Below, piece after piece: positions 203-34,522 of a DNA stretch of 34,618 bases; positions within the stretch are counted from its first letter, which is position 1; every line of letters starts with the position of its first letter. The DNA comes from a virus: IMG/VR virus record IMGVR_UViG_3300027721_000042, positions 1-34,618 of that record. One strand, written 5' to 3'. A model generated the notes under the pieces. It was not told where the DNA came from, made no database searches, and saw only the letters and a list, made by a program, of their open reading frames with translations. Position numbers and translations under genes: made by a program.

Positions 203-433
203 CTATTTAAAATCTTCTATTTTAAGACTTGATGTAAAATCATTAATCTGTTTAAGAAATTCATCTCCATGTTTATTATCTGCAAATATAAGACCTTTAA
301 TAAGAGCCATAAATTTACCTTGTTCTTCTTCTGTATCAATAGATTTCATATCTATTAAATCTTTTATAGCTTTTAAAGATTTATCCTCTTCCGCATCTTC
401 TTTTATTTTATAGACTGGTTTGTATCTTTTCAT
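203..433 (-). CDS. Tagged small protein (76 aa)
   Basis: A 76-residue protein starting MKRYKPVYKIKEDAEEDK. The first five residues are the shared tag, followed by an aromatic residue and an acidic run. The body is a charged, leucine/isoleucine-rich helical sequence with no recognisable domain and no cysteines or membrane segment. It sits in the tandem run of tagged genes, with 22 bases to the gene upstream, and an AGGTG-type ribosome site precedes the ATG. Length and composition resemble internal head or scaffold-core proteins of T4-like phages, which are also short, charged and helical. The function is inferred from the tag alone. Confidence 0.75.
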   Translation of the reverse strand: MKRYKPVYKIKEDAEEDKSLKAIKDLIDMKSIDTEEEQGKFMALIKGLIFADNKHGDEFLKQINDFTSSLKIEDFK

Positions 434-2010: not shown

Positions 2011-2292
2011 TTATATTCTATAATGAGAACCAGCTATGCCTTTATAATCAAAATTTTTTGAAATTAATGAATCTATGGTTACAAAATCTGTAAGAAGACA
2101 TTTTAATTTTCTGAGTATCTTTTTTTTATCTTCACATTGTTCTTTTTCTAATTCTTTATACATATTTATTATATTATAAAAAGATTCAAATGATGTTGCA
2201 GCAATATTAGAACAAGATTCTTTTAATTCAATGGTTTCAATTAAATTATCTATATTAAGAGATTCTTCAAATTTGCGTTCATATTTTTTCAA
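2011..2292 (-). CDS. Tagged small protein (93 aa), TTG start
   Basis: A 93-residue protein read from a TTG start at 2292, with an AGGT ribosome site a few bases before it. It begins MKKYERKFEESL, a diverged tag that keeps Lys2, Tyr4, Phe8 and two glutamates. The remainder is helical and rich in Glu/Lys, with several cysteines and no known domain. A late-promoter-like motif lies 15 bases upstream, so this is probably the first gene of the last transcription unit in the window, which then runs through the other tagged genes toward position 1. The function is inferred from the tag. Confidence 0.7.
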   Translation of the reverse strand: MKKYERKFEESLNIDNLIETIELKESCSNIAATSFESFYNIINMYKELEKEQCEDKKKILRKLKCLLTDFVTIDSLISKNFDYKGIAGSHYRI

Positions 2293-6230: not shown

Positions 6231-6476
6231 CTACTCTTCTAAATCAATATCGTCAATAGTTATACTACTGATTGCTTGCTGCTGTTTTATATGCCTCTCT
6301 TGATTACCTACAAAACTTTTTAGATAACCTTTCACCATAATAGTTAAATGGTCTATTATTTGTTCATTAGTATCAAGTATAATCTGATTTTCTTCACCTA
6401 TCTCATACTGTGATAATATGACATTCTTAAATCTTTGTAAATCTTTGTTCTTTATATCTATTTTTAGTTTAGCCAT
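6231..6476 (-). CDS. Small helical tail-module protein (81 aa)
   Basis: An 81-residue protein, MAKLKIDIKNKDLQRF onward, mostly charged helix with an acidic C terminus (TIDDIDLEE). No known domain is visible. Its ATG overlaps the stop codon of the giant fibre gene (TAATG), so it is translated straight after it. T4-type phages often place a small chaperone or adaptor gene directly after a fibre gene. That is only an analogy here. Confidence 0.65.
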   Translation of the reverse strand: MAKLKIDIKNKDLQRFKNVILSQYEIGEENQIILDTNEQIIDHLTIMVKGYLKSFVGNQERHIKQQQAISSITIDDIDLEE

Positions 6477-9400
6477 TAGTTTAATACCTCTATAACTGAA
6501 TTTGTACTTGTAATTGTATTTCCTGCTCTTGCATCACTCCATTGATAAGTTACATTTAATTGCCCTGTTGCTGTAGTATCTATTGTTACAGCAGAAGTAG
6601 TTACTATTTGTCTTCCATAGACTGTCATATCTGCTGAAGAAGCCGCATATATAGTAGTTGAACCTTGTACAAATATAGTACCCGTAGCACCTGTAGTTCT
6701 ACAAGTCATTATAAGTTCTCCTATAAATAGACTATTTGTAAGAGTTACTGGAAATGCATCACCAATAGAACTTGCTACAGTAACACTTCCAACTTTCACT
6801 CTTATAGAAGCTGTATCTAAAGCAGTACACGAAATATGCCCGTACATTTTTAAACGTATAGTCTTACCAGCAACCCAGAAATTCGCTGGTAATAAAGTAA
6901 CTCCTACACCTGTTCCAACCATAGTTGTTTCTGTAGTTGTATTACCAACTGTAGCACTTGCTGTTTGTGTAAAGATAACACCCGATAAACTTTTAGTTAT
7001 TCCTGAAGATTGTGATCTTATACAAGCTTGTGTTGAATCATTCCATATATCTCCAGCAACTGGTGCTGTTGGAGCTGTTCCTGAAGCTAAACATAAGGAT
7101 GCTCTTACTGTAGAACTTGCTCCTATATGAACCAAAGCTGTTGGAGCTGTTACATTTACCCCTAGATAACCTGCATTAGAAATACGCATTCTTTCTGCAC
7201 CATCTGAAGTAAAGTCTCCTACTGTATTAGTCTTAAAGTATATAAATCCTTTAACTAAATGTTCTGTTGCTGCATCATTTTCAACACCACCACCAAATCC
7301 AGCAGCAGGAACCCACTCTGCAGCTCTTCCAGAAGGATCTGGTTTTTCATCTTTCCAACCGTAGAAATAAAATAATCCTAAATTGTCACCTTGATTAACT
7401 ACTACTGGAGATGCTGAGCTTCCCCTAGACCTTCTAAAATTAAAGTATGGTGATGCACCTGCGGATGCTGCTGTATATCGTGTTGCCTGAACACCCGTTG
7501 TAGAGGCTGTTCCTTCTATATCTAATGCCATTGCTGGTATAGTTGCACTACCAATACCTAACTTTCCAGCAAGATAATTATCGGCTGTCCCTGCCATATA
7601 GATATTCCATCTATTTGTTGCAGATGCTAAAGACCCATAAAAACCATAATTACTTGTTGCTCCAGTCATAGTAGATGGAACATGATATCCTATTTGGTTA
7701 GTAATAGATGAGCCTGAACCAATTGTTGGATTTAATAACGAATAATGATACATAAGATTTAAAGCAAATGATGCAGCTTCTGTTAACGGTGCTGATATAA
7801 AAGAATAAGCACTTGCAGTAACATCTGATTTAATTGTTGCACCTTGGTAAAGTCCATATTGTGTTGTAGCTCCGGTCATTGCTCTTGCAAATGTTGCACT
7901 AACTGCAGTAGAAGCACTAGTACCTTGCGCAATTCTTCCATCACTATAAAAACGAAATTTCTCTGATATATCTGTTGTTCCATCTGCTGTGGATATTTTT
8001 ATGTCTGCTTTAGGATAAACGCCGGACTGAGTTCCATTTGCTACCGATTCAATACTAGAGCAAATATTTCCTGTGACATGGTCAGAATCGTTTGAATACC
8101 ATTGTATCGTTCCATAGACATTAGTTGAAGCTACTATGGTGTCATTTCTTTGTAATGTTATTGTTGGATAAGTACCCTCTGTCATTCCAGATAAATGTAA
8201 TCCTATAGATGATCCAAATGTTAATGGGGTTGAAGTGCCTATACCTATATTTCCTAAATTATCTATTCTCATTTTCTCAGTTAATGTCCCTGAAGTTAGA
8301 GTTGATAATGATAGATATCCTTTAGTTGAGGTATCTGTAGCGTCTGATTTTCTTCCTGCTATACTTGCAAAAGGTACTTGAGTTGTACTAGTATAAACAC
8401 CACCTAGTGCTAAATGTCCACCTTTATCAATTGCTTGAGAATCAGTAGTTCCAATAAAAACATTACCAAATGAATTTGTAATAGTATTGGCATCATTTAT
8501 AGCAAGTTTTTGTACAGGGGAAGTAATACCAATACCAACATTCCCACCGAAATAATTTGTCCCGCTTACTGAATAAATAGAATAATTGTTTGTACTAGCT
8601 CCAGATATTCCTCCAATATAAATACCATATTTACTTGCTCCAGTTGCATTGGTGTTTGCGAATAGTTGTATTCCATATGACACTGTACTCGCATCTGAAT
8701 GATATCCGTTCATGCTACGGACAGCCAAACCAGCTATTGTTCCAAATTTACCACCACCAGTTCCGAAGATACCTATATCAGCACCATAGTAGTTTGTCAC
8801 ATTTCCTGTTCCTAGTATTCCACCAGTAAATACAAGACCTGACATATTGGTTATAAGACCTGATCCGTTATTATAAGCAGAGCCAGTCATTGCTCGAATA
8901 TTTGCATGATCATATGCAGATAACCCTGTAGTAGTTACGGTAACAGTCGTAACACATCCAGTAGAACCTGTATCTATAAATGAATTAGTTCCTGTCTTTG
9001 CCTCTGCAACTTTTGCTGTTAATGTAACCGTAGCAGAAGCAACCGTAACAGTCCAATTTGTAGTTATAGTTGTATCAAGATTAAGAGCTGTATTGATAGC
9101 TGTTGCAAGAAGGTCAACCGTAGTCTCTGTCAAATTACTTACCGCTACAACTGAAGAAACACCTCTAATAGAAAATGTAATATTACCAGCACTTGTTGGA
9201 ACTACAGTTGCAACAATTCTAATTACTTCTGCTGTTGGTGTATTTGTAGATGCATAAGATACAAAGTTTACCCCATCTTCTGCTACTGTAACAGCACCTG
9301 TAGTTGCTCCAAAAGTAGATATAAGTGCATAACCTTTTGAAGCAATAGTTGAATCATTTACAGTTGTTGTTGCATCTATCTGGCTAGTTGGTGATGATTT

Positions 9401-12400
9401 TCCTGCTCCAATACCCACTGGTTTTGCTAAGTAAATCTTGTCCCCATGATATTCGGCTACTGTTGCAGATGTTATTGTGTTTAATGGTGTTGCTGTAAAT
9501 CTAATATATGTTCCATGATTTGTTGGAGTCCATGCACCACTTGAGTATGATCCGAAGCCAGCTTGGTTTGCAGCTCTAGCTGTTCCATCATAAGCACCCA
9601 TTTGAAAGTTGAAGAGAGTATCAGAGTCAAGAACCGCCTTTGGGCTTGCGATAGTCCCTCTGTATTTTATAGACCTAATTACATTTGATGTATTGTTATC
9701 ATAATAGTCAGACATTTCAAATACTTGAGCATTTCCCTCTTTTACAAAATCAATATTTCCGGTGACGAACGCCGAAGATCCGAGCAACAAGTCTCCAGCT
9801 TCATTTATCTGAAATTTTACTCCCTGCTCTATAACACTAATATTTGTTATTGATCCATCAAAAGTTGAGGTTGGTTGAAATGCTATATAAGTATCGTCCA
9901 CAGCAGCAGTTATGGCTGACATATAATTTCCAGCACCCATAGTAACGCTCACAGTAGCTCCGTTTACTGAGCCGATCTTAGGTATAATAGTTCCTGCAGT
10001 ATTTCCAGCTACTGTAAAATAAATTTTGTATCTCTTACCGGCTTTAATTGATCCAGAAGTCAAATTTACATTTGCAAGAATTGCATTGGCTGTTGAGCCT
10101 ACGGTGTGGACAAGTGTACCTCCAGAAGTAGTCCAATTAGTCCCTGTCCAGTTATTAGCACCTGAAAAATCCCTATCAACTTGATTTATTATAAGCTCAG
10201 AACTTTCAGCTTTAAATACTTCAAACTTACCTGTTGGAGACGATGTACCTATACTAAATTTTCCTGCTGAAGTAATCCTTGCACGTTCATTAGCTGCAAG
10301 TGTTCCACCTGTAAAGAATGTTAAATCTTTTCCAGCAGTAGCTGTACCTATAGACAATACTCCTGAATTTGTATAAAGATAACCATCATTAGGTCCATTG
10401 ATAGTCCAAGGAACCCCTGAAAATCCTGAACTATTTATTCCCATATCTATAAATCTTGTAGTATCAGAACCATTATCAGCAGTAGCAATCCAATCACTTG
10501 AGGCTGAATTTCCATTACTTAAATTTTGTATATTATTTTGAACCCAACTATCAGTTGAATCCCATGACTGAAGCATTACATTTGAAAGACCGGCTGGAGT
10601 CCCCGCTCCTTGTGCTACAATATGACCAGCATATAAATCCCCACCAACTCCAACACCACCAGCTACTTGTAAAGCCCCAGTAACTGTATTCATACATTGT
10701 GTACCAGCATCTATTATCACTGATCCTGTTGTTGTATCAGCTTTATTAGGCTGTATAGTTAGATTCTCGGTTGTAAGAGTACCTCCATAAATAGTCTGAC
10801 CACCTGCTTTACCTGTAATAAGATCATTGGATACGGCATTTCCTATTTTTGTTACACCACTCCAAAAAGTATTATCACCTGTATTTGTACCACTCGTATT
10901 AGCAACCACTGTGGCTTGTGCAGAAGTTATATGGTAATACTCATTTGTTGTTCCACCTTGTAAACCTGCTAAATCATTATGAAGAGCTATAAGAGGGGTA
11001 GTAAAATGAGAATATCTTGCAGTACCATTATGTGCAAAATAAACAGTTCTACTACCATCAGATACTCCAAAAAAAGCAGAAGCTAATGTATCCGTTGTTT
11101 CTACTGTAAATGAAGGTTGAGCTGAAGTTACAGTATAAAGTTGTAATCCTGCGAATAGAGGAGAAGTTGCTGTATTGTTTATCTCCCCTGTATTAACACT
11201 AAATAATTTTTTATGTACTGAATAGGCTACATCTGATTGGTTAGTATATGTTGTAGGAGTTTCTATAGTAATTTCTGTATCAGAAACTCTAGATAGTATT
11301 CTGAAAAATCCTGTTGTTGTTTGTAGATAAGAATCTGAGTCACTCGTTCCTCCTACATCTATTTTAGCAGTTGCAAAAGGTGTTCCAGTAGAAGCAGTTG
11401 CTGTTCTTGTTGTTAATGTACCTGTAGTTGTAATTGTACCTATTTCAGGTCTTACCCTATAAACACCTTGAGTAATAGATGTTACATTTACCGCAGAAGA
11501 TACTCCTGCCCATATTTCAAAACTCCATATACCACCATCAATAAGAGTTTTACCTATTGCAGCAGTATTCAGGTATGTACCATAAAGAACCGGGGAAGTA
11601 GCCGCTGTACATATAATTGAATCAACATCCTCTGTTGTAGTTACAGGTGTTTTTGAAAGTGTTTTAATAGGATAAGTTGATTGTGTTCCAGATGCTATAA
11701 TTGTTGTATCATCAGGAAACATTGTTACTGCTGATCCCGCTGATGCACTTGAGAAAGAATACTCCCTAACCATATTTACAAAGATTCTTCCGTTAACTGC
11801 ATCTTTCAACATTACTCTTGCAACTCTTGTATCATATGAACCAGTATTAGGTTTTATATTTGTTAACGCCCCTGCAATAGAGGCATCAAGATATAGTTCA
11901 TCATTAAGATTCCAAGCTGAAGTATCTATTTTATTTACATGACCCCTAACTGTACAATAGCCATATCTTGTATCATCTATTGTAAGAGAGGTAATAACAC
12001 CTAAAACTTTTGAAGTAGTTTCAGTATCCCCTTTTGCCAAAGATACCGAGGGAATACCATCCTGAGTTCCTGAGATATAAACTACATTACCCTGTACTAG
12101 TTGAGAACCGGTTCCATTATATACATAGGCCATTGTTTCTTGACCTATTTGTAAAGTGACATCATCTTCAAGTTCACAAGCTGGAGTTTTCCAAGCTGCA
12201 TCCCAGAACATTTTCCCACCAGTTCCATGAGTTCCTACTGTTGGAGTTAATCCTAATTGAATTGGTTCATTTACAGTTAATATACCACTTAATGTAACAC
12301 TATCAGTAATAGTATGAGGATATAATGTTGTAGACACTCTATCCCATAAATTCTCAGCTCCTACTGAATCATCAACATATTTTTTTGTAGCTGGTTCATA

Positions 12401-15259
12401 ATCTGCATCTGGAGTAAAAGCGGTTGTATTATTTAATTCAAGTACATTTGATTTATCAGCTTTAAGGAATAGATCAATGTCATATTCATTTTTTCTTATA
12501 GCATGTGTTCCTGATGTTGCTATATTACTTAATACAACTTGTAGAGATTCATTTGTTCCATCTTTAGAAAATTTTTGAGTTGCTGGTCCAGATCCAAATT
12601 GAAGTTCAACTTTTTTAGATAAGTCATTATTTCTTATTAAAGCTATATCTCCAGTATTTCCAAATGTCTCAGAACCTGCACCACCATTATATCTATTATT
12701 TATATCAGCCACAGATATTTCTGTATCATATACTACAAATTCGTCTACCTCTACAGTAGTCATTGCAGTACTTGATCCATTTAAACCTGATATTTGAAAT
12801 GGTGTAGCAGTAATTAAAGTTTCTCCTCCAGTTAATGTATTTGTGGAAACAGTTGGAGTTTGAAGTACATTATTAAGATATATATTCATACCAGCAAGAT
12901 TTCTACTACCATCATATGTTACTGCAATATGAGAATATACATCAATTAAAGAAGTCCAATTTAAACTTCCAATTGTTTTTCGAATGTATCGTAATGTTAC
13001 AGGATCTCTCATCATAAAATCAATATTACCTGTTGCAGAGGGTATTATTGATACATAATAACCAGCAGTTAATGCAGTAGCCTTAGAAAATACAACTTTT
13101 TGTGCTGCTACTAATACAGTTGGTTTTATCCAACATTCTACTGAAAAAGGTGTATCAAAATTAAAACCGAATTCGGTATTATTAGAATTTTCTAATCTCT
13201 CACCTATTGGAGAAGCGTTTATTAAAATAGCACTTGTTCCTAATTTTGGAGTTAAAGTATCCCATACTGGAGAATTTACAAGATTTAGATTTCTTCCTCC
13301 ACCAGATATATTATATGCAATAGTACCTGTTCCCTCATTTAAATGATACCATGCATAAGGTAATACAGTATTTTGTGTACCTAATACAATTCTTTTATCA
13401 AAATCTAATTGTATTTCCCCTTGATGTATAAAAACATTTTCTACATAAACCCCATCACCAAGAGTTTCTTCACTTATAGAATTTATTTTTAAAGTATCTC
13501 CTGATATATAAGGAGATATCTCTGTTCCAGTTTTAGACCATATCTTTTCTTGTTTATTATTAAAAGTATTCCAATCATCTCCAGATAATGCACCAGGAAC
13601 TCCTGAAGCAGATAGACCTAAAGATAATTGTTGAGTTAAAAGACTTAATCCATTAGCTGTTCCTAAAGTTACTGCATCATGTCTTGAAGCAGTATTAAGT
13701 GCTATATCTGAATGAGTATAAGTACTATTATGAGTTGCCATATAACTTGTAGCAACACCTGAATTTTCTTTTAATGCTAATTGATCATATGCTAGTTTTT
13801 CACTTATATAATGTGTATCATCAGGAGTTATTTGAAAGGATGTTATTTTATTTATTATATTTTCTGGAGTATATCCTATAGTTGGTTCAAATCCAGTATG
13901 ACCTGCTGAAGCATAATCAAGTCCAGTTAAAGCACTATGAACAGTTACACCACCACTAGGGAGAATCCAAGATCTAACTCCTCCTGTAGTAGAAGATAAT
14001 ATTTTACCTGTTACATCTGGATTACCTAATGAATTTTCTTTATTATCTAATGAATCTTTTGCTAATTTTTCTGAAATATAATGTGTATCATCTGGTACTA
14101 CTTGAAAAGTGGTTCTAAGATTAGCTATATTCTCAGGAGTATATCCTAAATTGACTTGAGCACCTATATCAGAAAGTACCTCTGAATAAGATCTCCCCTC
14201 TAATCCTGTAGCAGTGAATTTAGCATAATCATGATCAGCAACTCCTGACACTGTAATTTTTACAGCATTCGTATCTTCTATTCCAAAAGTTAAAGTATTT
14301 TGTTTTAAATTTATTTGATCATATAATAGTTTTGCTGAAGGATATTGTATATCAGTTGAAGCCCCTGAAATAGAAGTTACTTTATTTGCTGAATCTTCTG
14401 GTACATATGAAATATTTGTATTTAATGAATCCCAATTAGAAGCGGTTTGTCCAGGAGTATCTACTTTAGATATTATATAATCACCTACATGAACTACACC
14501 ACTTCCAAGAATTCCTTGTACAGATATAGCCCAAGTATCCCCAACTAAAATAGTTCCTGATGCTCCAGAACCTCCTGCTGAAGGATATAAATTACTAGAA
14601 GCATCATAAGCACCCCTATAATCTAGCAATCCCCCAACCAAGCTATCAGCATAAGTTTTAACTGCTTTCACACTAGGGTATTTTATATCTGAAGATGCAT
14701 CAGTAATAATATTTATACTTTTATTTACTATATCTTCAGGAGTGTAACCTAATGAAGCTTGAAATCCAGTATGACCAGAAGTTGCATAAGATAAGTTATT
14801 AAGTGTTGCGTGATCTAATGTTCCACCTCCTATACCAATCCAAACATTTCCATCCCATACAAAATTTATAGCACTACCTGGAGCAATTACTATTGTATTG
14901 ACTGTAATACTATTAGAAGAAGTATCATTATTTATAACTAAAAAAGATTTACCTGATAAAGAAGAAGTTGGATTTTGTAATGTTTGTGAATTTCCTGTAG
15001 TAGTTAATGTTATTACTGTACCTGAATAAGCATCTATTTTTAAAGTGGTTACAGCTGCATTAACTGCTGGATCTGTTATAGCGTCTAATGTTAGAGCTGC
15101 TGTAGGAAAATAAACTAATGTATTCCAATCACTAGTTCCATTTCCTATTTTCATTTTATATGTATTTGTTTCATATCCCATTTCCCCTTGTGCTAAGGTA
15201 GGATTAGTTAATCCCCAGTTAACAGAAGTGTCTCTTCTTATTTGAAACTGAACTGCCAT
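6476..15259 (-). CDS. Giant modular tail fibre (2927 aa)
   Basis: The start is ATG 15259 (MAVQFQIRRDTSVNWG), with GGAGGAG just ahead. The ATG 18 bases further up would translate that ribosome site. Residues 1-50 form an Mtd-like N-terminal module (QIRRDTSVNW, LAQGEMGYETNTYKMKIGNG). Then come repeated fibre units of the type GYTPEDIVNKS...YPSVKAVKTYADS, seen near residues 180, 290, 390 and 475. About 630-865 is a LamG/jelly-roll domain (WYHLNEGTG, FSVECWIKP, HIAVTYDGSRN). The middle and second half carry many fibre repeats of the type GNVGIGITSP and GKLGIGSATIP. The last 160 residues are a beta-rich tip, possibly receptor-binding. No C-terminal autocleaving chaperone is recognised. Confidence 0.92.
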   Translation of the reverse strand: MAVQFQIRRDTSVNWGLTNPTLAQGEMGYETNTYKMKIGNGTSDWNTLVYFPTAALTLDAITDPAVNAAVTTLKIDAYSGTVITLTTTGNSQTLQNPTSSLSGKSFLVINNDTSSNSITVNTIVIAPGSAINFVWDGNVWIGIGGGTLDHATLNNLSYATSGHTGFQASLGYTPEDIVNKSINIITDASSDIKYPSVKAVKTYADSLVGGLLDYRGAYDASSNLYPSAGGSGASGTILVGDTWAISVQGILGSGVVHVGDYIISKVDTPGQTASNWDSLNTNISYVPEDSANKVTSISGASTDIQYPSAKLLYDQINLKQNTLTFGIEDTNAVKITVSGVADHDYAKFTATGLEGRSYSEVLSDIGAQVNLGYTPENIANLRTTFQVVPDDTHYISEKLAKDSLDNKENSLGNPDVTGKILSSTTGGVRSWILPSGGVTVHSALTGLDYASAGHTGFEPTIGYTPENIINKITSFQITPDDTHYISEKLAYDQLALKENSGVATSYMATHNSTYTHSDIALNTASRHDAVTLGTANGLSLLTQQLSLGLSASGVPGALSGDDWNTFNNKQEKIWSKTGTEISPYISGDTLKINSISEETLGDGVYVENVFIHQGEIQLDFDKRIVLGTQNTVLPYAWYHLNEGTGTIAYNISGGGRNLNLVNSPVWDTLTPKLGTSAILINASPIGERLENSNNTEFGFNFDTPFSVECWIKPTVLVAAQKVVFSKATALTAGYYVSIIPSATGNIDFMMRDPVTLRYIRKTIGSLNWTSLIDVYSHIAVTYDGSRNLAGMNIYLNNVLQTPTVSTNTLTGGETLITATPFQISGLNGSSTAMTTVEVDEFVVYDTEISVADINNRYNGGAGSETFGNTGDIALIRNNDLSKKVELQFGSGPATQKFSKDGTNESLQVVLSNIATSGTHAIRKNEYDIDLFLKADKSNVLELNNTTAFTPDADYEPATKKYVDDSVGAENLWDRVSTTLYPHTITDSVTLSGILTVNEPIQLGLTPTVGTHGTGGKMFWDAAWKTPACELEDDVTLQIGQETMAYVYNGTGSQLVQGNVVYISGTQDGIPSVSLAKGDTETTSKVLGVITSLTIDDTRYGYCTVRGHVNKIDTSAWNLNDELYLDASIAGALTNIKPNTGSYDTRVARVMLKDAVNGRIFVNMVREYSFSSASAGSAVTMFPDDTTIIASGTQSTYPIKTLSKTPVTTTEDVDSIICTAATSPVLYGTYLNTAAIGKTLIDGGIWSFEIWAGVSSAVNVTSITQGVYRVRPEIGTITTTGTLTTRTATASTGTPFATAKIDVGGTSDSDSYLQTTTGFFRILSRVSDTEITIETPTTYTNQSDVAYSVHKKLFSVNTGEINNTATSPLFAGLQLYTVTSAQPSFTVETTDTLASAFFGVSDGSRTVYFAHNGTARYSHFTTPLIALHNDLAGLQGGTTNEYYHITSAQATVVANTSGTNTGDNTFWSGVTKIGNAVSNDLITGKAGGQTIYGGTLTTENLTIQPNKADTTTGSVIIDAGTQCMNTVTGALQVAGGVGVGGDLYAGHIVAQGAGTPAGLSNVMLQSWDSTDSWVQNNIQNLSNGNSASSDWIATADNGSDTTRFIDMGINSSGFSGVPWTINGPNDGYLYTNSGVLSIGTATAGKDLTFFTGGTLAANERARITSAGKFSIGTSSPTGKFEVFKAESSELIINQVDRDFSGANNWTGTNWTTSGGTLVHTVGSTANAILANVNLTSGSIKAGKRYKIYFTVAGNTAGTIIPKIGSVNGATVSVTMGAGNYMSAITAAVDDTYIAFQPTSTFDGSITNISVIEQGVKFQINEAGDLLLGSSAFVTGNIDFVKEGNAQVFEMSDYYDNNTSNVIRSIKYRGTIASPKAVLDSDTLFNFQMGAYDGTARAANQAGFGSYSSGAWTPTNHGTYIRFTATPLNTITSATVAEYHGDKIYLAKPVGIGAGKSSPTSQIDATTTVNDSTIASKGYALISTFGATTGAVTVAEDGVNFVSYASTNTPTAEVIRIVATVVPTSAGNITFSIRGVSSVVAVSNLTETTVDLLATAINTALNLDTTITTNWTVTVASATVTLTAKVAEAKTGTNSFIDTGSTGCVTTVTVTTTGLSAYDHANIRAMTGSAYNNGSGLITNMSGLVFTGGILGTGNVTNYYGADIGIFGTGGGKFGTIAGLAVRSMNGYHSDASTVSYGIQLFANTNATGASKYGIYIGGISGASTNNYSIYSVSGTNYFGGNVGIGITSPVQKLAINDANTITNSFGNVFIGTTDSQAIDKGGHLALGGVYTSTTQVPFASIAGRKSDATDTSTKGYLSLSTLTSGTLTEKMRIDNLGNIGIGTSTPLTFGSSIGLHLSGMTEGTYPTITLQRNDTIVASTNVYGTIQWYSNDSDHVTGNICSSIESVANGTQSGVYPKADIKISTADGTTDISEKFRFYSDGRIAQGTSASTAVSATFARAMTGATTQYGLYQGATIKSDVTASAYSFISAPLTEAASFALNLMYHYSLLNPTIGSGSSITNQIGYHVPSTMTGATSNYGFYGSLASATNRWNIYMAGTADNYLAGKLGIGSATIPAMALDIEGTASTTGVQATRYTAASAGASPYFNFRRSRGSSASPVVVNQGDNLGLFYFYGWKDEKPDPSGRAAEWVPAAGFGGGVENDAATEHLVKGFIYFKTNTVGDFTSDGAERMRISNAGYLGVNVTAPTALVHIGASSTVRASLCLASGTAPTAPVAGDIWNDSTQACIRSQSSGITKSLSGVIFTQTASATVGNTTTETTMVGTGVGVTLLPANFWVAGKTIRLKMYGHISCTALDTASIRVKVGSVTVASSIGDAFPVTLTNSLFIGELIMTCRTTGATGTIFVQGSTTIYAASSADMTVYGRQIVTTSAVTIDTTATGQLNVTYQWSDARAGNTITSTNSVIEVLN

Positions 15260-15260
15260 A

Positions 15261-15593
15261 TTATGCTCCTCCTCCATCTAAAACTTGTGAGATTAAATAT
15301 ATACTTGCTGCTGCTCCACCATCTAGTTGAGTTAAACTACTTCCACCACTTATACTTATCCAAGTATTTGGCATAATAGTTTTAAGCCATAATACACCAG
15401 CACTTTGCATAAATGTACTTCCGATTAACATACTAATTAGTTTATCTTCCCCATCTGAGTGTGATGGTACTGCTGTATTAGGATCTGCATCAAAAAGCAT
15501 TGAAGAAATTGTATCATCCAATGTAGAGTTTTTGGACCATTGAAATCCTCTCCGTTGAATTTCAAAATATAATTGATCATTATTTAGAGACAT
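15261..15593 (-). CDS. Tail-module protein upstream of the fibre (110 aa)
   Basis: A 110-residue protein (MSLNNDQLYFEIQRRG) with a helical first half and a glycine/serine-rich hydrophobic second half (WISISGGSSLTQLDGG). No family is recognised. Its start lies inside the end of the homing endonuclease gene (14-base overlap), which also supplies the ribosome site GAGGT. Its last codons, GAT GGA GGA GGA GCA TAA, in turn supply the ribosome site of the giant fibre. It is probably a minor tail or fibre-linked protein. Confidence 0.7.
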   Translation of the reverse strand: MSLNNDQLYFEIQRRGFQWSKNSTLDDTISSMLFDADPNTAVPSHSDGEDKLISMLIGSTFMQSAGVLWLKTIMPNTWISISGGSSLTQLDGGAAASIYLISQVLDGGGA

Positions 15594-16266: not shown

Positions 16267-17922
16267 TTATACTAACTCCTCTATTATAACTGTTGTGGGA
16301 ACACTACTAGAATTGGTTGCTGCTGTATCCAAAATAATAGCAGTTGTTGGATTTATTGAAAGTGCATCAATACTCCAAGAATTTGCATCCGGTACAGTAC
16401 TTGTTCCAACTACTCTCTTATTAGGTAATGCTTTAACTGACCAAGTAAAAGTTAGTTTAGCATAATCAATAACTTCTGTATTAAAAACAATAGTATTCGT
16501 ATATGCAGGGAGTGTTATAGTTCTTGAAACAAAACCACCTATTGTATAAGTAGAGTCACCTGTAATAACTACAGTTTGTATTCCAGCTAAATTAGTTCCA
16601 GAAATACTCCCCCAACTACAAACTTGTTTGACCATTGTATCGGTAACTTGTAATGATCTTGTCCAAGTTGTTCCAGAACCTGCAAATCCTGCTCCTTGAA
16701 ATACACCCTCTGCTCCAGCAACTAAAGTTGGAGCTGAATATAAGTTTTGATTTGCTGTAATAGTTATAACATGATTTTGTGCAGAAGTACTATCATTTCC
16801 ACCACTTCTTAATCTTGAAGCAGGTTCTGTTACTGTAAGAGTACAAGCTACATGAGCTATATAGATAACTGTTTGTGTTGTAGATATTGCATTATTAGCA
16901 GTTCTTGTAGCGGTTATTCTAAAATTATTTGTGGATATATTATAATTACCTGAAAGTCTTGTAACTGTTTTTGGTGTTTCAACAGTCGTAGCATTTGTTA
17001 TTGTTAAATCTCCATTAGGAGAATCATATAAGACTGTATCATAATTTGTAACTGTATTTACTATTGTAGCTGTTTCACTGTCTTTTAAAGCTCCTTGAGA
17101 TGCTGGATATGTTTTAGTTCCTGTAGAAACAGTAGGATATAGATTATTTAATTTAACTAAATTTGTACCATCTACACTACCATCATCTTCAGTTAAATAA
17201 TAGGTAGACCATGAGCCAGTTGATTTTTGTACTCTTACTTTAGCACCTAAACTTTGAACCGTTGTACCTCTATTTGCTATTACACCTATAACAGTATGAT
17301 TAGTTCCAGATACTACTGAAAATGATTGAGCAGAATAAGCACCATAATCATCAAGTTGTACAGCTATAATTGGTATATCAGATACTATATTTAAAGAGAA
17401 AGTATCTGCTAATTTTAATTCTGTTTGAGTTCCAGGATATCCACCAGTAAAGTTTGCAGAAGATATAACAGGAGGGGAATCTAATGCTATAGTACAAGAA
17501 GTAATTGCTCCATCTTCATGTTCTATTGATAGGTTAGTTTCTCCTGCTAAGTTTATTGCAGTTGATCCTATAAATAGAGGTTTATCTGCTTGAGCTGTAA
17601 GAGTAACTACTTGACTATGTGTTCCCCATCGTAATGACATAATTGGTTTATAATGAGTATTTCCTGTAATTCCTAATGTTGAAACAGTAACTAATTGAGT
17701 ATCACTTACACAAGATTGAAGTACTATTCCATCGCTATCATATACTTTAGTTCCAACATTTCCAGTACTTGTAGGAATTATATCCGTTATAAATGCACCA
17801 CCATTAACTCCTGATACACCTGAAAAAGATACCCATGTAGCATTCTTTCTACCATAAGTAAATCCATCAATAGGGGCTTCTGGAATACCCCCACTAGATA
17901 ATGATGATATTTTAGTACTCAT
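16267..17922 (-). CDS. Large tail/baseplate structural protein (551 aa)
   Basis: A 551-residue protein rich in Thr, Ser, Val and Gly, predicted nearly all beta. The N terminus (MSTKISSLSSGGIPEAPIDG, then FTYGRKNATWVS) resembles the start of phage fibre or collar proteins. The body looks like successive Ig-like or fibronectin-like beta modules (patterns such as TLTVTEPASRLRSGGND, AQNHVITITANQNLYS). It has no enzyme motif. It is the first large gene of the fibre module, 13 bases after the tagged gene at 17936. It could be a fibre base, wedge or adhesin. The exact place in the virion is unknown. Confidence 0.78.
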   Translation of the reverse strand: MSTKISSLSSGGIPEAPIDGFTYGRKNATWVSFSGVSGVNGGAFITDIIPTSTGNVGTKVYDSDGIVLQSCVSDTQLVTVSTLGITGNTHYKPIMSLRWGTHSQVVTLTAQADKPLFIGSTAINLAGETNLSIEHEDGAITSCTIALDSPPVISSANFTGGYPGTQTELKLADTFSLNIVSDIPIIAVQLDDYGAYSAQSFSVVSGTNHTVIGVIANRGTTVQSLGAKVRVQKSTGSWSTYYLTEDDGSVDGTNLVKLNNLYPTVSTGTKTYPASQGALKDSETATIVNTVTNYDTVLYDSPNGDLTITNATTVETPKTVTRLSGNYNISTNNFRITATRTANNAISTTQTVIYIAHVACTLTVTEPASRLRSGGNDSTSAQNHVITITANQNLYSAPTLVAGAEGVFQGAGFAGSGTTWTRSLQVTDTMVKQVCSWGSISGTNLAGIQTVVITGDSTYTIGGFVSRTITLPAYTNTIVFNTEVIDYAKLTFTWSVKALPNKRVVGTSTVPDANSWSIDALSINPTTAIILDTAATNSSSVPTTVIIEELV

Positions 17923-17935
17923 TTAATTCCTTATA

Positions 17936-18247
17936 TTATACTAAAGATTTTCTATATGAGAGAAGTGAACGTAATATGGTTTTAACAACTATTTGTTTTT
18001 TCTTATTCTTTAGATTTTCATCCTCTATATTTTCAAACATAGAATCTAATCCTGTAATCAAAGATTCTCCTATAATATTTCCACTTAAATATGGTTGTGG
18101 TTTAATTTTAGATATAAGTTCAATTATACCTATTAGATTATTTTGAGCTGAACCAATATTATTAACTGTAAATGAAGCTTCATTTATTTTTTCTTTTGTT
18201 TTAACTATAATTTCTTCTTTCTGTATTTGAGATTTGTATCTTTTCAT
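17936..18247 (-). CDS. Tagged small protein (103 aa)
   Basis: A 103-residue protein starting MKRYKSQIQKEEI, carrying the shared N-terminal tag but without the aromatic residue after it. The rest is helical with no known domain. A late-promoter-like motif lies 32 bases upstream, and a terminator for the previous unit lies just beyond that, so this gene heads the long fibre transcription unit. The tag suggests packaging in the head even though the following genes are tail genes. Confidence 0.7.
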   Translation of the reverse strand: MKRYKSQIQKEEIIVKTKEKINEASFTVNNIGSAQNNLIGIIELISKIKPQPYLSGNIIGESLITGLDSMFENIEDENLKNKKKQIVVKTILRSLLSYRKSLV

Positions 18248-21160: not shown

Positions 21161-21418
21161 TTATTTAACCCATATCCAATAATAATCATCTATATGTTTC
21201 TCAACTCGTAGCCCTTTCTGTTTTAATAAAGATAATACCCTGTAAGTATTTCTACTTGAATCCGGAATATATGTATATAGAATATTTCTTTTTTGATTTA
21301 ATCTATCGGTAGGATTATTAACTAATTCTACATTTAACTGATCTTTAATAAAATCAACAATATCTTTTTTATTTTTTATTATTTTATTATCTTCAAAGAA
21401 TGGTTCATATCGTTGCAT
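21161..21418 (-). CDS. Tagged small protein (85 aa)
   Basis: The start is set at ATG 21418 so that the protein begins MQRYEPFFEDNK, matching the tag and especially the next gene (MERYKPFFED). The frame continues 8 codons upstream inside the previous gene. The 85-residue protein has a helical middle (KKDIVDFIKDQLNVEL) and a possible small winged-helix or DNA-binding-like end (TYRVLSLLKQKGLRVEK, then DDYYWIWVK). No family can be named. It is the middle gene of three adjacent genes that each carry RY(K/E)PF. A packaged role is inferred from the tag. Confidence 0.72.
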   Translation of the reverse strand: MQRYEPFFEDNKIIKNKKDIVDFIKDQLNVELVNNPTDRLNQKRNILYTYIPDSSRNTYRVLSLLKQKGLRVEKHIDDYYWIWVK

Positions 21419-21789: not shown

Positions 21790-22011
21790 TTATTGACCTT
21801 TTATAGCGTCTAGTTGAAGTTTCTTTTTAACTATTTTATTTTCTATACTATTGATTTGATTTTTTATTTTTTGTTTATCTTCTAATGACATATTTTCTGT
21901 ATTAGATGATTTATCTCTTAGTTTTGTTATTTGATCTTGAAAATCTTTTATTTGAGATTGTATTGTTTCTTTTTCATCCTCTTTAAAAAATGATTTATAT
22001 CGTTTTGTCAT
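21790..22011 (-). CDS. Tagged coiled-coil protein (73 aa)
   Basis: A 73-residue protein starting MTKRYKSFFKEDEKE, with the tag shifted by one residue (a Thr inserted after Met). The rest is one long charged coiled coil (IKDFQDQITKLRDKS, KQKIKNQINSIENKI). Small, highly helical, tagged proteins are what internal head proteins of T4-like phages look like. A late-promoter-like motif lies 22 bases upstream and a terminator lies just beyond it, so this gene heads the unit that includes the ParB-domain protein. Confidence 0.75.
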   Translation of the reverse strand: MTKRYKSFFKEDEKETIQSQIKDFQDQITKLRDKSSNTENMSLEDKQKIKNQINSIENKIVKKKLQLDAIKGQ

Positions 22012-23497: not shown

Positions 23498-24331
23498 TTA
23501 TACCTCGTAAGAATCTTTAAAAGGTATTTTCATACTTTTACCTAATAAATTTTCTCTGTTCATTCTTTTAATTAGTGTTTGTAACCATATGTCTACAATA
23601 GCTTTTCCATAATCTTTAACATCTGTATATACAGAATATAGTGAAGGATAAATAGTAAATAGTTGTGGTATATTTATTTTATCCCATTTTAATTTATTAT
23701 CTTTGTATACTTGTTTTAATCCATGAATCTGAGCATCTATTTCAAAATGAGTTAAATTTATATCTTTTGTTTTTAATTTCAAAAGTTCCGGGTTATCATA
23801 TTTTTTAGCAAGGTAAACAACTTTTTCAATATGATCATTATGTAATGTATTATTTAACCAATGAGATAATTCATGATAAATCATTGATTTTACATAACTT
23901 TCTTTTAACATATTCTTAGCTATCTGAATTTCTTTTTCAGATATAAAATTTTTCATTTTTCTAAAATCAAAATCACTTTTAATATATATTTCAATTAGTT
24001 CTTTATTTAAAGATATAATAATATAGTTTCTATCTTTTATTTTTTTATCAAAAATTATTTTAGATTCAGTAGTAAATACTCCTCCAAAGATATAAATAGG
24101 TTTTAATTCATTTGCTAATTTAGATTCCATACACTTTAATTTATTAGAATCTAAATATTCAAAAACACAACCTCTTTCATTTATCACTGGCCATCTTTTA
24201 TTTAAATCTTCATTGAAAGTTTTATCTTTTAATTGCTCCATATAAGACTTAAAAATAAAAGAATATATATAATTAACATCATCATCTATATCAAAAGTTC
24301 TTTCTAAAAAATAAGATTTATACCTTTTCAA
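23498..24331 (-). CDS. Tagged HExxH metallopeptidase-like protein (277 aa)
   Basis: A 277-residue protein read from TTG 24331 with AGAGG upstream, starting MKRYKSYFLERTF, the shared tag. Residues 153-157 are HELSH inside VKSMIYHELSHWLNN, the zinc-binding HExxH motif. About 40 residues later FEIDAQIHG offers Glu197 as a likely third ligand, a spacing and E-I-D-A pattern seen in gluzincin-like peptidases. Key residues look intact. No signal peptide or membrane segment is visible. A protease with a capsid-targeting-like tag could be injected into the host, or could act in the prohead. It is followed by a coiled-coil gene and preceded by the primase. Confidence 0.82.
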   Translation of the reverse strand: MKRYKSYFLERTFDIDDDVNYIYSFIFKSYMEQLKDKTFNEDLNKRWPVINERGCVFEYLDSNKLKCMESKLANELKPIYIFGGVFTTESKIIFDKKIKDRNYIIISLNKELIEIYIKSDFDFRKMKNFISEKEIQIAKNMLKESYVKSMIYHELSHWLNNTLHNDHIEKVVYLAKKYDNPELLKLKTKDINLTHFEIDAQIHGLKQVYKDNKLKWDKINIPQLFTIYPSLYSVYTDVKDYGKAIVDIWLQTLIKRMNRENLLGKSMKIPFKDSYEV

Positions 24332-24340
24332 ACTACCTCT

Positions 24341-30335: not shown

Positions 30336-30387
30336 TTGTGAACTAACACAACTCTAAAGAGTTGTATCTTCCTGCTTCATAGTTCAC
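30336..30387 (-). repeat. TnpB element right end, nested hairpins (candidate omega-RNA 3' part)
   Basis: GTGAACTA at 30338-30345 and TAGTTCAC at 30380-30387 are a perfect 8-base inverted repeat enclosing a second hairpin, ACAACTC at 30348-30354 with GAGTTGT at 30359-30365. On the minus strand this covers the last TnpB codons and runs to TAGTTCACAA. IS200/IS605-type elements end in such hairpins, and the TnpB guide RNA is made from this region. A related copy is at 32488-32519. Confidence 0.6.
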
Positions 30388-31587
30388 ACTTACAAAAGAT
30401 TTTAAATAATCTATTGCAGAGGTATTAAACTCCACAGGCTTAAATTTCCTACATTCCATAGGTATTGTTTCTAAAAGAATATTTTTTGCAGAATGAATAT
30501 CTCTGTCCTGAGAATACCCACAGTCACAAAAGTATATTCTTTCGTCTAAACCAATTTTATTAAGACAGCCACATTCAGGACAAAGTTTTGTACTTGGAAA
30601 AAATCTATCAACAATATGTGTCTGCGGAAGTTGTTTTAATTCCGAAATTATTCCACCTAAAATTGATTGCTGTACTTGTTTTCCAAATAATCCTGCATGC
30701 CATCCTTTTATATTTTCATTTTGAATTGCTATATGAGAATAATTATTTTTTAAATAACTTACAATTTTATTTTTGCAATCTTGTTTTTTATTATTTTGTT
30801 TCTCGTAAACTAAGGCAACTTTATTTTTTTGTTTCCAATAATTATGACTGCCTTTTTTCTTTTTAGCTAATTTTCTCTGCTCTCTTTTAATTTTAAAAGA
30901 TGTTGGAAATTTAGTTTGAAATTTAATTCCATTGCTCAAAACTAAATCATCTTTAATTCCAAAATCAATACCTAATATTTCTTTACTTATGTTTTTATTT
31001 TCTTTAGGAAGAAAACAGGTAACCTTGAGATAATATCCAGAAGATTTTCTAATCAAATTAGCATTTGCAAATTCAGCTTCTTTTGGAATTTGTTTTAATC
31101 CTTTAATTTGAAATAAGAATTTACAATTTTGTATTTTTAAACCACCATCTTGAAACTTATAAGTTATTCCATATTGTTTTAATGGGATAGAGTTTATTTG
31201 ACTTTTAAATTTAAGTCTACCCACTTGTTTTGTTTTACCTTTTTTCTTTTTAGTAGATAACGACTTAATAGAACCCCATGTTCTTTGTAATATTTCTTGT
31301 TTAATCTGACTACCTAAAACTTTTAATTCTCTTATTTCCTTTTCTTTCTCTTTATTTAGAATTTCTACTTCTTTCTTTTTGCAATCATAGTTTTTTAAAT
31401 CATTAAAATTTAAAATATCATTATATACCCATTTTGCTTCAAGGAAAATTCTATGCAAAAAATCAATTTGTTTTAAATTGAACTTATTTTCAGACAACTT
31501 CAACTCATAAACTTTACAGGTTTGTGTTTTACGTTTTTCCCTTGTAATTGAAAGAGAATCCTTTATTTGTTGGTTTTTAGTTATCAT
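30343..31587 (-). CDS. tnpB: TnpB RNA-guided endonuclease (IS200/IS605 type)
   Basis: A 414-residue TnpB, of usual length. The RuvC-like active site appears complete: Asp208 in LGIDFGIKDD, Glu291 in AIQNENIKGW and Asp363 in DRDIHSAKN. The zinc ribbon has Cys336, Cys339, Cys354 and Cys356 (LCPECG...FCDCG). TnpB cuts DNA guided by a short RNA from the element's right end, keeping the element in place or copying it into empty sites. No TnpA transposase is visible, so this is an orphan TnpB. It lies between two pieces of a DUF932 gene. The gene ends in a nested hairpin typical of a right end. Confidence 0.93.
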   Translation of the reverse strand: MITKNQQIKDSLSITREKRKTQTCKVYELKLSENKFNLKQIDFLHRIFLEAKWVYNDILNFNDLKNYDCKKKEVEILNKEKEKEIRELKVLGSQIKQEILQRTWGSIKSLSTKKKKGKTKQVGRLKFKSQINSIPLKQYGITYKFQDGGLKIQNCKFLFQIKGLKQIPKEAEFANANLIRKSSGYYLKVTCFLPKENKNISKEILGIDFGIKDDLVLSNGIKFQTKFPTSFKIKREQRKLAKKKKGSHNYWKQKNKVALVYEKQNNKKQDCKNKIVSYLKNNYSHIAIQNENIKGWHAGLFGKQVQQSILGGIISELKQLPQTHIVDRFFPSTKLCPECGCLNKIGLDERIYFCDCGYSQDRDIHSAKNILLETIPMECRKFKPVEFNTSAIDYLKSFVSVNYEAGRYNSLELC

Positions 31588-32467: not shown

Positions 32468-32649
32468 TCTTTAAATCCATCCTTAGCTTGTGAACTACTA
32501 CAAGTCTTTAGACTTGTAGATTCTTGTTTCATTGAAAATTGCTTATCAAAAACAAAGGTTTTTTCTAAGTCTGACATCTTCTCCACAAGCATTGAATTTC
32601 TAAGTTCTTTAGAAATTTTTAAGCCCTGATTTAAAATATTTTTAATCAT
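32464..32649 (-). pseudogene. Decayed TnpB C-terminal remnant
   Basis: A 61-codon frame whose first part, IKNILNQGLKIS, matches the AKNIL segment after the last RuvC aspartate of TnpB (intact copy: SAKNILLETI). The part near its end, SMKQESTS, fits the usual TnpB C terminus. The nuclease core and zinc ribbon are gone. It ends in a hairpin (CTACAAGTC at 32498-32506 with GACTTGTAG at 32511-32519) followed on the minus strand by TAGTTCACAA, as in the intact element. The remnant overlaps the end of the tagged gene upstream by 8 bases. Confidence 0.62.
32488..32519 (-). repeat. Second TnpB-type right end
   Basis: TTGTGAACTA at 32488-32497 is identical to 30336-30345 beside the intact TnpB gene. 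It is followed in both places by a hairpin with a four-base loop and related arms (CTACAAGTC here, ACAACTC there). This marks the two elements as relatives and leaves a possible guide-RNA scaffold at this site. Confidence 0.6.
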
Positions 32650-33025
32650 CTATAGAATATTCTATGTACCACAAAATATCTGAGTCTTCATTCCACTGAA
32701 GTTCCCCAGAATTTATAGCATCTAAAACTTCAGCGAATACTTCTCCTGAAGGTATTTTACTATTCAATTTTTTCATAGCTTTTAAAACTAATTGTTTTAA
32801 TTTAGCTTGTTGATTAGGTCCAATACTAATTCTACCCTCTTTAAATCCACCATTAGCTTTCAATTCATCAAGAACATATTCCTGATCTCCATCAGAAAGT
32901 TTTTTAAAATCTGAATCCTTTTTTAGAAGTTTAAATGATCCATATTTAGCTTTAAATTCACCTATAAGTTCATTTAAATCTTTTTTATTTTTTTCTTCAA
33001 ATTTGTATGGTTTATATCTTTTCAT
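32642..33025 (-). CDS. Tagged small protein (127 aa)
   Basis: A 127-residue protein starting MKRYKPYKFEEKNKKD, a good tag copy almost identical to the 31-residue peptide at 1906-2001. The rest is charged and helical (LKQLVLKAMKKLNSKI) with an acidic C terminus. No domain is recognised. It lies among early-type genes, yet it has its own late-promoter-like motif 25 bases upstream. That supports late expression and a packaged role. The TnpB remnant begins at its stop codon. Confidence 0.74.
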   Translation of the reverse strand: MKRYKPYKFEEKNKKDLNELIGEFKAKYGSFKLLKKDSDFKKLSDGDQEYVLDELKANGGFKEGRISIGPNQQAKLKQLVLKAMKKLNSKIPSGEVFAEVLDAINSGELQWNEDSDILWYIEYSIDD

Positions 33026-33634: not shown

Positions 33635-34522
33635 TTATTTTACGCGTTTTAATATCATTCCATAATTATTTACACCTTCTTTAACTATATAATCATCTTT
33701 TAATAGAAGTTTATTTTGTTTAAAGGGTAGATAATTTACATGATGATGCCATCTACTAAATTTCCAAACTACTTCTGTTACATCTGGGTGCATATCTTTT
33801 AGCATTTTTGATTTAGGTAATGTACCTTCTTGAGAATAAAAATCAGCATTATTTCCACCATGTAATACTTGCGTAGTTAGTTTTTCTTGAAGAAATGCAT
33901 TAAATTGAACTGTACACCATCCATCTTTTAACATACATAAGGATAGATCAGTATCTTCATTATAACGTCCTCTCCATCTATAAGGTGTATCGTTTCTTAT
34001 AAGATTACATGAATATATTCTGGTATTTATTACATAAGGAGGTAATTTTTCCTTACGAGGTACAAACATATAATAATTAGGTCCAGCCATAGATACATTT
34101 GAATATCTTAAACAAAAATCTTCCATAGCTTTAAACATAGCTCCGGAAGTTGTTTTTATTTGTCTATTATCATTAAATATTTTAAATGACATTATATTAT
34201 CATCCATAACCCAATGCCAAGTAAATCCATTTTGAATAGAATGATCCCATGCAAAATTTCTAGCTGCTCCTGGACCTTTACTTTTTGTATTTCCAAGATC
34301 ATCAAATGTTAAATATTCATCTTGATATTTAGGATCAAGTATAAGAAGTGTTACAAATTTATTATCTTTATGAGCTTCATAATATAAATCATATTGTTGT
34401 TTTTCTACAATTATATAATGAGGTATTTCCATAACAGTAAGATTATCGCTAGTATATCCTTTTATATCATGTCTACCCTTAGATGGGAGATATATTGGGA
34501 ATTGTGGATTATTCGTTAACAT
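33635..34522 (-). CDS. TET-associated-type glycosyltransferase (TAGT)
   Basis: A 295-residue protein matching the TAGT pattern along its length: IYLPSKGRHDIKGYT at residues 10-24, GPGAARNFAWDHS at 83-95, WHWVMDDNI at 102-110 with the metal-binding Asp107-Asp108, then MAGPNYYMFV, INTRIYSCNLIRND, and WRGRYNEDTDLSLCMLKDGW from residue 183, then FNAFLQEK. In phages this family is predicted to add sugars to 5-hydroxymethyl pyrimidines made by TET/JBP oxygenases, giving hypermodified DNA that resists host nucleases. Key residues are present. No TET/JBP gene lies in this window. The ATG overlaps the end of the gene upstream by 14 bases. Confidence 0.85.
   Translation of the reverse strand: MLTNNPQFPIYLPSKGRHDIKGYTSDNLTVMEIPHYIIVEKQQYDLYYEAHKDNKFVTLLILDPKYQDEYLTFDDLGNTKSKGPGAARNFAWDHSIQNGFTWHWVMDDNIMSFKIFNDNRQIKTTSGAMFKAMEDFCLRYSNVSMAGPNYYMFVPRKEKLPPYVINTRIYSCNLIRNDTPYRWRGRYNEDTDLSLCMLKDGWCTVQFNAFLQEKLTTQVLHGGNNADFYSQEGTLPKSKMLKDMHPDVTEVVWKFSRWHHHVNYLPFKQNKLLLKDDYIVKEGVNNYGMILKRVK

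Follow-up and report, generated by a model that had tools for sequence, protein, structure and literature searches.

The window, i.e. the whole stretch of 34,618 nucleotides that was analysed, encodes a protein of 277 aa that is a member of a previously unnamed, zinc-protease-like family of phage proteins, as judged from the pattern conserved among its relatives. The protein is best read as a zincin-type (HExxH...E) metallopeptidase, with zinc binding and catalysis as predicted properties. Since it opens with a T4-style packaging tag, the enzyme is probably among the proteins that the phage packs into its capsid, and we infer, as the best account, that it is delivered with the DNA. It appears rather probable to us that this phage zinc metallopeptidase is an internal head cargo, which is ejected with the DNA and acts early in infection by cleaving a single host protein or a few.

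A preliminary description had reported a HELSH motif, a downstream FEIDA stretch and a TTG start for this gene, and all three were recovered when the open reading frame was re-read on the minus strand. Its features are:

23498..24331, minus strand: zincin-like metallopeptidase with an N-terminal capsid-targeting-like tag, 277 aa, TTG start (from sequence, homologues and AlphaFold2)
24336..24340, minus strand: AGAGG, ribosome-binding-like, 4 nt ahead of the TTG (from sequence)
24302..24331, minus strand: tag MKRYKSYFLE, residues 1-10, with putative prohead-protease cleavage after E10 (E10 invariant, tag enriched)
23861..23875, minus strand: HELSH, residues 153-157, predicted to supply two zinc ligands and the catalytic Glu (H153, E154 and H157 invariant in 36 homologues)
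23741..23743, minus strand: E197, predicted third zinc ligand, within FEIDAQ (ExxAQ; FEIDA is residues 196-200), on helix 195-211 of the model (invariant in 36)
23552..23566, minus strand: R256-x-x-R259-E260, C-terminal motif (invariant in 36)

No upstream in-frame start other than the TTG was found for this ORF. The next one is Met30, and a protein starting there would lose the region to which the N-termini of all homologues align; the TTG is thus the only start that keeps the homologue-conserved region. The window is wholly contained in a 71-kb IMG/VR contig (G001), which carries the same gene and more tagged genes.

The HExxH motif on its own is weak evidence: by shuffling, 0.14 occurrences are expected in the proteins of the window (P=0.008 for the metallopeptidase alone), and conservation is therefore the real test. 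Alignment searches identified about 50 IMG/VR loci with homologues, some of them redundant. The family has about 40 distinct members, all unannotated. Among 50,697 phage records, tblastn found homologues in five, namely Microcystis phage Mel-JY01 and the Vibrio phages PVA8 (two records), PC-Liy1 and F86, all annotated as hypothetical. In 84,980 bacterial and archaeal genomes a single pattern-confirmed relative was present, on an apparently phage-derived contig (5.8 kb) of an Izimaplasma MAG, and this was also the only copy in 195 genomes of that phylum. The family thus appears to be phage-borne and essentially phage-only.

An alignment of 36 homologues, which share 20-38% identity with the window protein, showed nine invariant columns: E10, I81, H153, E154, H157, E197, R256, R259 and E260. 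The invariant residues therefore include the putative zinc ligands as well as the glutamate at the putative cleavage site. None of the 36 lacks the HExxH residues, an absence that had been put forward as a possible refutation, and the zinc site is believable, as was proposed, in that both histidines, the intervening glutamate and E197 form an invariant, gluzincin-type HExxH...E pattern. Known families did not account for the protein. Scans of the protein and its homologues against Pfam, PHROGs and NCBIfam yielded sub-threshold noise only, and PDB sequence searches with two profiles gave no match. The Pfam model of MPTase-PolyVal (PF18818) matched none of 14 members scanned at E<=1; nor was there a match to the S77 serine protease (PF03420), the Pfam scan of the protein being empty.

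AlphaFold2 predicted the structure with a mean pLDDT of 82.6 (14-sequence input) and 86.3 (35-sequence input). In the models the HExxH lies on helix 144-163, preceded by one helix and several strands, and E197 lies on a downstream helix (195-211), as expected for the third ligand of a gluzincin. This order (N-terminal helix, strands, HExxH helix, Glu helix) is the order of elements given for the zincin core in PMC5512222. Foldseek searches against PDB and BFVD returned nothing at E<=0.001 (best PDB E 0.67-0.71). With the first model, VIA gave weak matches (Z<=3.9), which included BlaR1 (3.9), an M48 protein (3.4) and another zinc peptidase, and with the second model the matches were helical-bundle noise with no zinc peptidase among them. 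A weak profile alignment by hhalign was obtained with three MPTase-PolyVal sequences (Prob 21.6%, with the reversed control at 0.2%), in which HELSHW and HELSHA are in register at the catalytic helix, whereas with three M48 sequences (Prob 3.8%) the catalytic helices were not aligned.

HExxH is found in non-peptidases too, and no confident structural match to any peptidase was obtained. One could therefore regard the site as a structural zinc site, as that of another metalloenzyme, or as part of an inhibitor that binds a host defence protein, in line with T4 IPI, a head cargo that acts as a pure inhibitor (PMC9026906). We consider this very unlikely, as the catalytic Glu154 is invariant together with both histidines and the residues around E197, ExxA(Q), resemble the EExxAE that MPTase-PolyVal members have. 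The metallopeptidase reading is retained in the following.

The second line of evidence is the tag. The pattern 'M + 0-3 residues + RY[KE]' opens 10 of the 49 window genes where about 0.04 would be expected (RY[KE] was seen twice in 10,336 internal residues of the window proteins). The tag is thus real and far above chance, and the early suggestion that the protein starts with a packaging-type tag proved to be right. Besides the metallopeptidase gene, the tagged genes of the window, as found by tag motif, are:

203..433, minus strand: tagged (MKRYKPVYKIKE) protein of 76 aa
456..734, minus strand: tagged (MKRYKRQFIE) protein of 92 aa
741..1172, minus strand: tagged (MKRYKRYFEEE) protein of 143 aa, weak DUF5661
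2011..2292, minus strand: tag-like start (MKKYERKFEE), 93 aa, by tag similarity
17936..18247, minus strand: tagged (MKRYKSQIQKEE) protein of 103 aa
19958..21160, minus strand: tagged (MERYKPFFED) protein of 400 aa with a ParB-like N-terminal domain (DGHHR), also by domain scan
21161..21418, minus strand: tagged (MQRYEPFFED) small protein, counted from an internal ATG
21790..22011, minus strand: tagged (MTKRYKSFFKE) protein of 73 aa
22109..22663, minus strand: tagged (MALKRYK) Hsp20-like protein, also by Pfam scan; with its apparent tag possibly a head-packaged chaperone
32642..33025, minus strand: tagged (MKRYKPYKFEE) protein of 127 aa

Beyond the window, at 64738-70766 of the 71-kb contig, a second group of small genes carries the tag in the form RYxxFFEM(A) and lies on the strand opposite to that of the contig's other tagged genes. 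Other genes of the window were noted in passing. At 30343-31587 a TnpB-like protein with a C-terminal CPECG...CDCG zinc finger (identified by eye) is encoded, apparently by an insertion-sequence gene inside the phage. A TET-associated glycosyltransferase (TAGT, PF20691, E 6e-39) at 33635-34522 suggests that the phage DNA is modified. The 2933-aa protein at 6476-15277, which adjoins a tail-sheath-family protein (16267-17922, phrog_15433), is probably the giant tail fibre of a myovirus.

In T4 a stretch of about 10 residues at the N-terminus targets the internal proteins; positions 4 and 7 are important for this targeting, positions 8 and 10 for the processing, and cleavage by gp21 follows L/I-x-E (PMC9026906). 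The tag of T4 IPIII reads MKTYQEFIAE/A and that of the window protein MKRYKSYFLE/R; the best match of the latter is the T4 capsid-targeting sequence with its gp21 cleavage motif, as far as can be judged from sequence. All 36 aligned members have Glu at P1 (E10), and 35 of them have L/I-x-E ahead of the putative cut; in the window protein this is F-L-E, with Phe instead of L/I at P3. Some homologues have longer tags (MKKLIKKLLRE...LLxE), unlike those of T4.

The tags differ among phages: MKRYKxxFxE in the window, MRLKQYLTE in G003, MxKFxQ(F/Y)(L/I)xE in G002 and MRLQQYL in L127. Because a loose T4-like tag expression was too permissive (1.6-4.5 occurrences expected per genome), a genome-specific similarity test was used instead. 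The tag of a homologue was found to resemble those of its own neighbours, with a mean best neighbour score of 25.7 over 35 loci against 15.7 when permuted; the maximum in 20,000 permutations was 20.3, so none reached the observed value (p<=5e-5). In several loci (e.g. L018, L053, L055) no similar tag occurs in the 5 kb flanks. A tag profile built without window and T4 sequences, when run on 64 T4 genes, ranked gp22 1st, Inh 2nd, gp21 4th and gp24 7th; gp22, gp21 and gp24 are head-maturation proteins of T4.

In the other carriers the metallopeptidase gene often belongs to a row of tagged genes, which numbers five in L127 and four in G003. The five adjacent genes at L127:1430-5017, whose contig was assigned to an Izimaplasma MAG, all open with MRLQQY or MRLQTY and are probably a phage fragment with an effector cassette. 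Among the tagged neighbours in carriers are a zeta-toxin/AAA_33 protein, a methyltransferase, a poly(A)-polymerase/tRNA-nucleotidyltransferase, and ParB-like and DUF5662 proteins. An ADP-ribosyltransferase identity, suspected by eye for tagged neighbours, found no Pfam, PHROG or PDB support and was dropped.

These neighbours bear on the meaning of the tag, which might only contact the scaffold, the protein then being a component of the prohead core or assembly that is not ejected. We find this highly doubtful. The same type of tag does occur on T4 gp22, gp21 and gp24 and on the S77 prohead protease of G006 (MRPSQILTE), but the metallopeptidase has invariant catalytic residues, its tagged neighbours comprise diverse enzymes without structural relatives, and in the genomes examined the gene lies outside the S77/scaffold/capsid cluster. 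An ejected cargo remains our preferred reading.

The preliminary description had offered a prohead-maturation enzyme as an alternative. This must be downgraded because a separate S77 prohead protease is present in 8 of the 13 carrier genomes searched, all three isolate genomes included, in each case encoded by a gene distinct from that of the metallopeptidase; moreover, the tag marks cargo and is shared with unrelated enzymes. No S77 protease was found in the 71-kb fragment to which the window belongs. The main alternative to an ejected enzyme is that the tagged protease is packaged but works within the prohead or head, where it would process itself or other tagged proteins packaged with it and leave the host untouched. 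Autoprocessing has been proposed for the zincin domain of P1 DdrB and N4 vRNAP (PMC5512222), and PMC7824862 suggests a maturation role for an extra zincin in one jumbo-phage group. In line with this, L041:4059-5705 encodes a 548-aa fusion protein with a tag-like start, in which a ParB-like DGHHR region precedes the metallopeptidase domain and an LTE/K site is kept internally, between the two. Most members of the family are stand-alone proteins, which leaves nothing for autoprocessing, and the carriers just mentioned have their S77 protease; T4 lacks the family, so that maturation can do without it, and the sparse spread (five of the 50,697 phage records) fits an accessory effector better than an assembly factor. 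Processing inside the head is unlikely on these grounds.

For the ejected cargo we propose the following course of events. The first 10 residues would act as a T4-type capsid-targeting sequence that recruits the metallopeptidase to the prohead core, where the S77 prohead protease of the phage probably cuts it after Glu10. The mature enzyme, of about 267 aa, would be retained in the head beside the other tagged cargo enzymes, and after ejection with the DNA it would, early in infection, cleave one protein of the host or a few. We infer each of these steps, from zinc binding and catalysis to packaging, cleavage, ejection and the host target. For the family as a whole, it is possible, at somewhat less than an even chance, that its members form a widespread group of stand-alone proteases which the head delivers, which cut a regulator or a defence protein of the host at the moment of infection, and which reside in interchangeable tagged-effector cassettes of T4-like and other large phages.

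Most of what is known about injected phage enzymes comes from a small number of models (T4 Alt, P1 Dar and N4 vRNAP). The family provides a specific injected-protease candidate in the isolated phages PVA8 and F86 (Vibrio) and Mel-JY01 (Microcystis). The rule for the tag, a genome-specific N-terminal motif ending in L/I-x-E and common to neighbouring genes that are otherwise unrelated, gives a generally applicable means of reading the injected arsenal of a phage from its sequence alone. In the open-access literature searched, we found no description of a tagged stand-alone phage metallopeptidase.

Several known systems share part of these properties. The T4 internal head proteins IPI, IPII, IPIII and Alt (PMC9026906, PMC3012670) have a similar N-terminal tag of about 10 residues, with an aromatic residue at 4 and 7 and Glu at 10, the same prohead-protease logic, and unrelated mature parts with only the tag in common, as is the case for the tagged proteins of the window; they differ in that the cargo here is an HExxH metallopeptidase, absent from T4, with Phe at P3 of the window tag. 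T4 is not alone in targeting injected cargo through the N-terminus, since P1 DarB, which is also packaged in the head, has a capsid-targeting sequence of fewer than 30 residues at that end (PMC9024508). S77 prohead proteases such as T4 gp21 (PF03420) are likewise phage proteases that take part in head assembly and carry a tag of similar kind at the N-terminus, but they are serine proteases of unrelated sequence. The SprT-like and ArdC-like zincins of jumbo phages are phage HExxH proteins for which cleavage of host proteins has been proposed, in passages of PMC7824862 that describe no packaging tag for them; in our scans the family did not match their Pfam models. The MPTase-PolyVal domains (PF18818) of P1 DdrB, N4 vRNAP, ArdC and TraC1 have an HExxH followed by a Glu on the next helix, are thought to be delivered with the DNA, and adjoin or are fused to ParB-like domains (PMC5512222), as in the L041 fusion, which is reminiscent of P1 DdrB. 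The metallopeptidase described here stands alone instead of forming a single domain within a giant protein, is tagged and matches them weakly in profile-profile comparison, and because the Pfam model did not match it we keep it apart from PF18818. By analogy, the best reading is that the metallopeptidase works like T4 head cargo combined with the polyvalent zincin domains.
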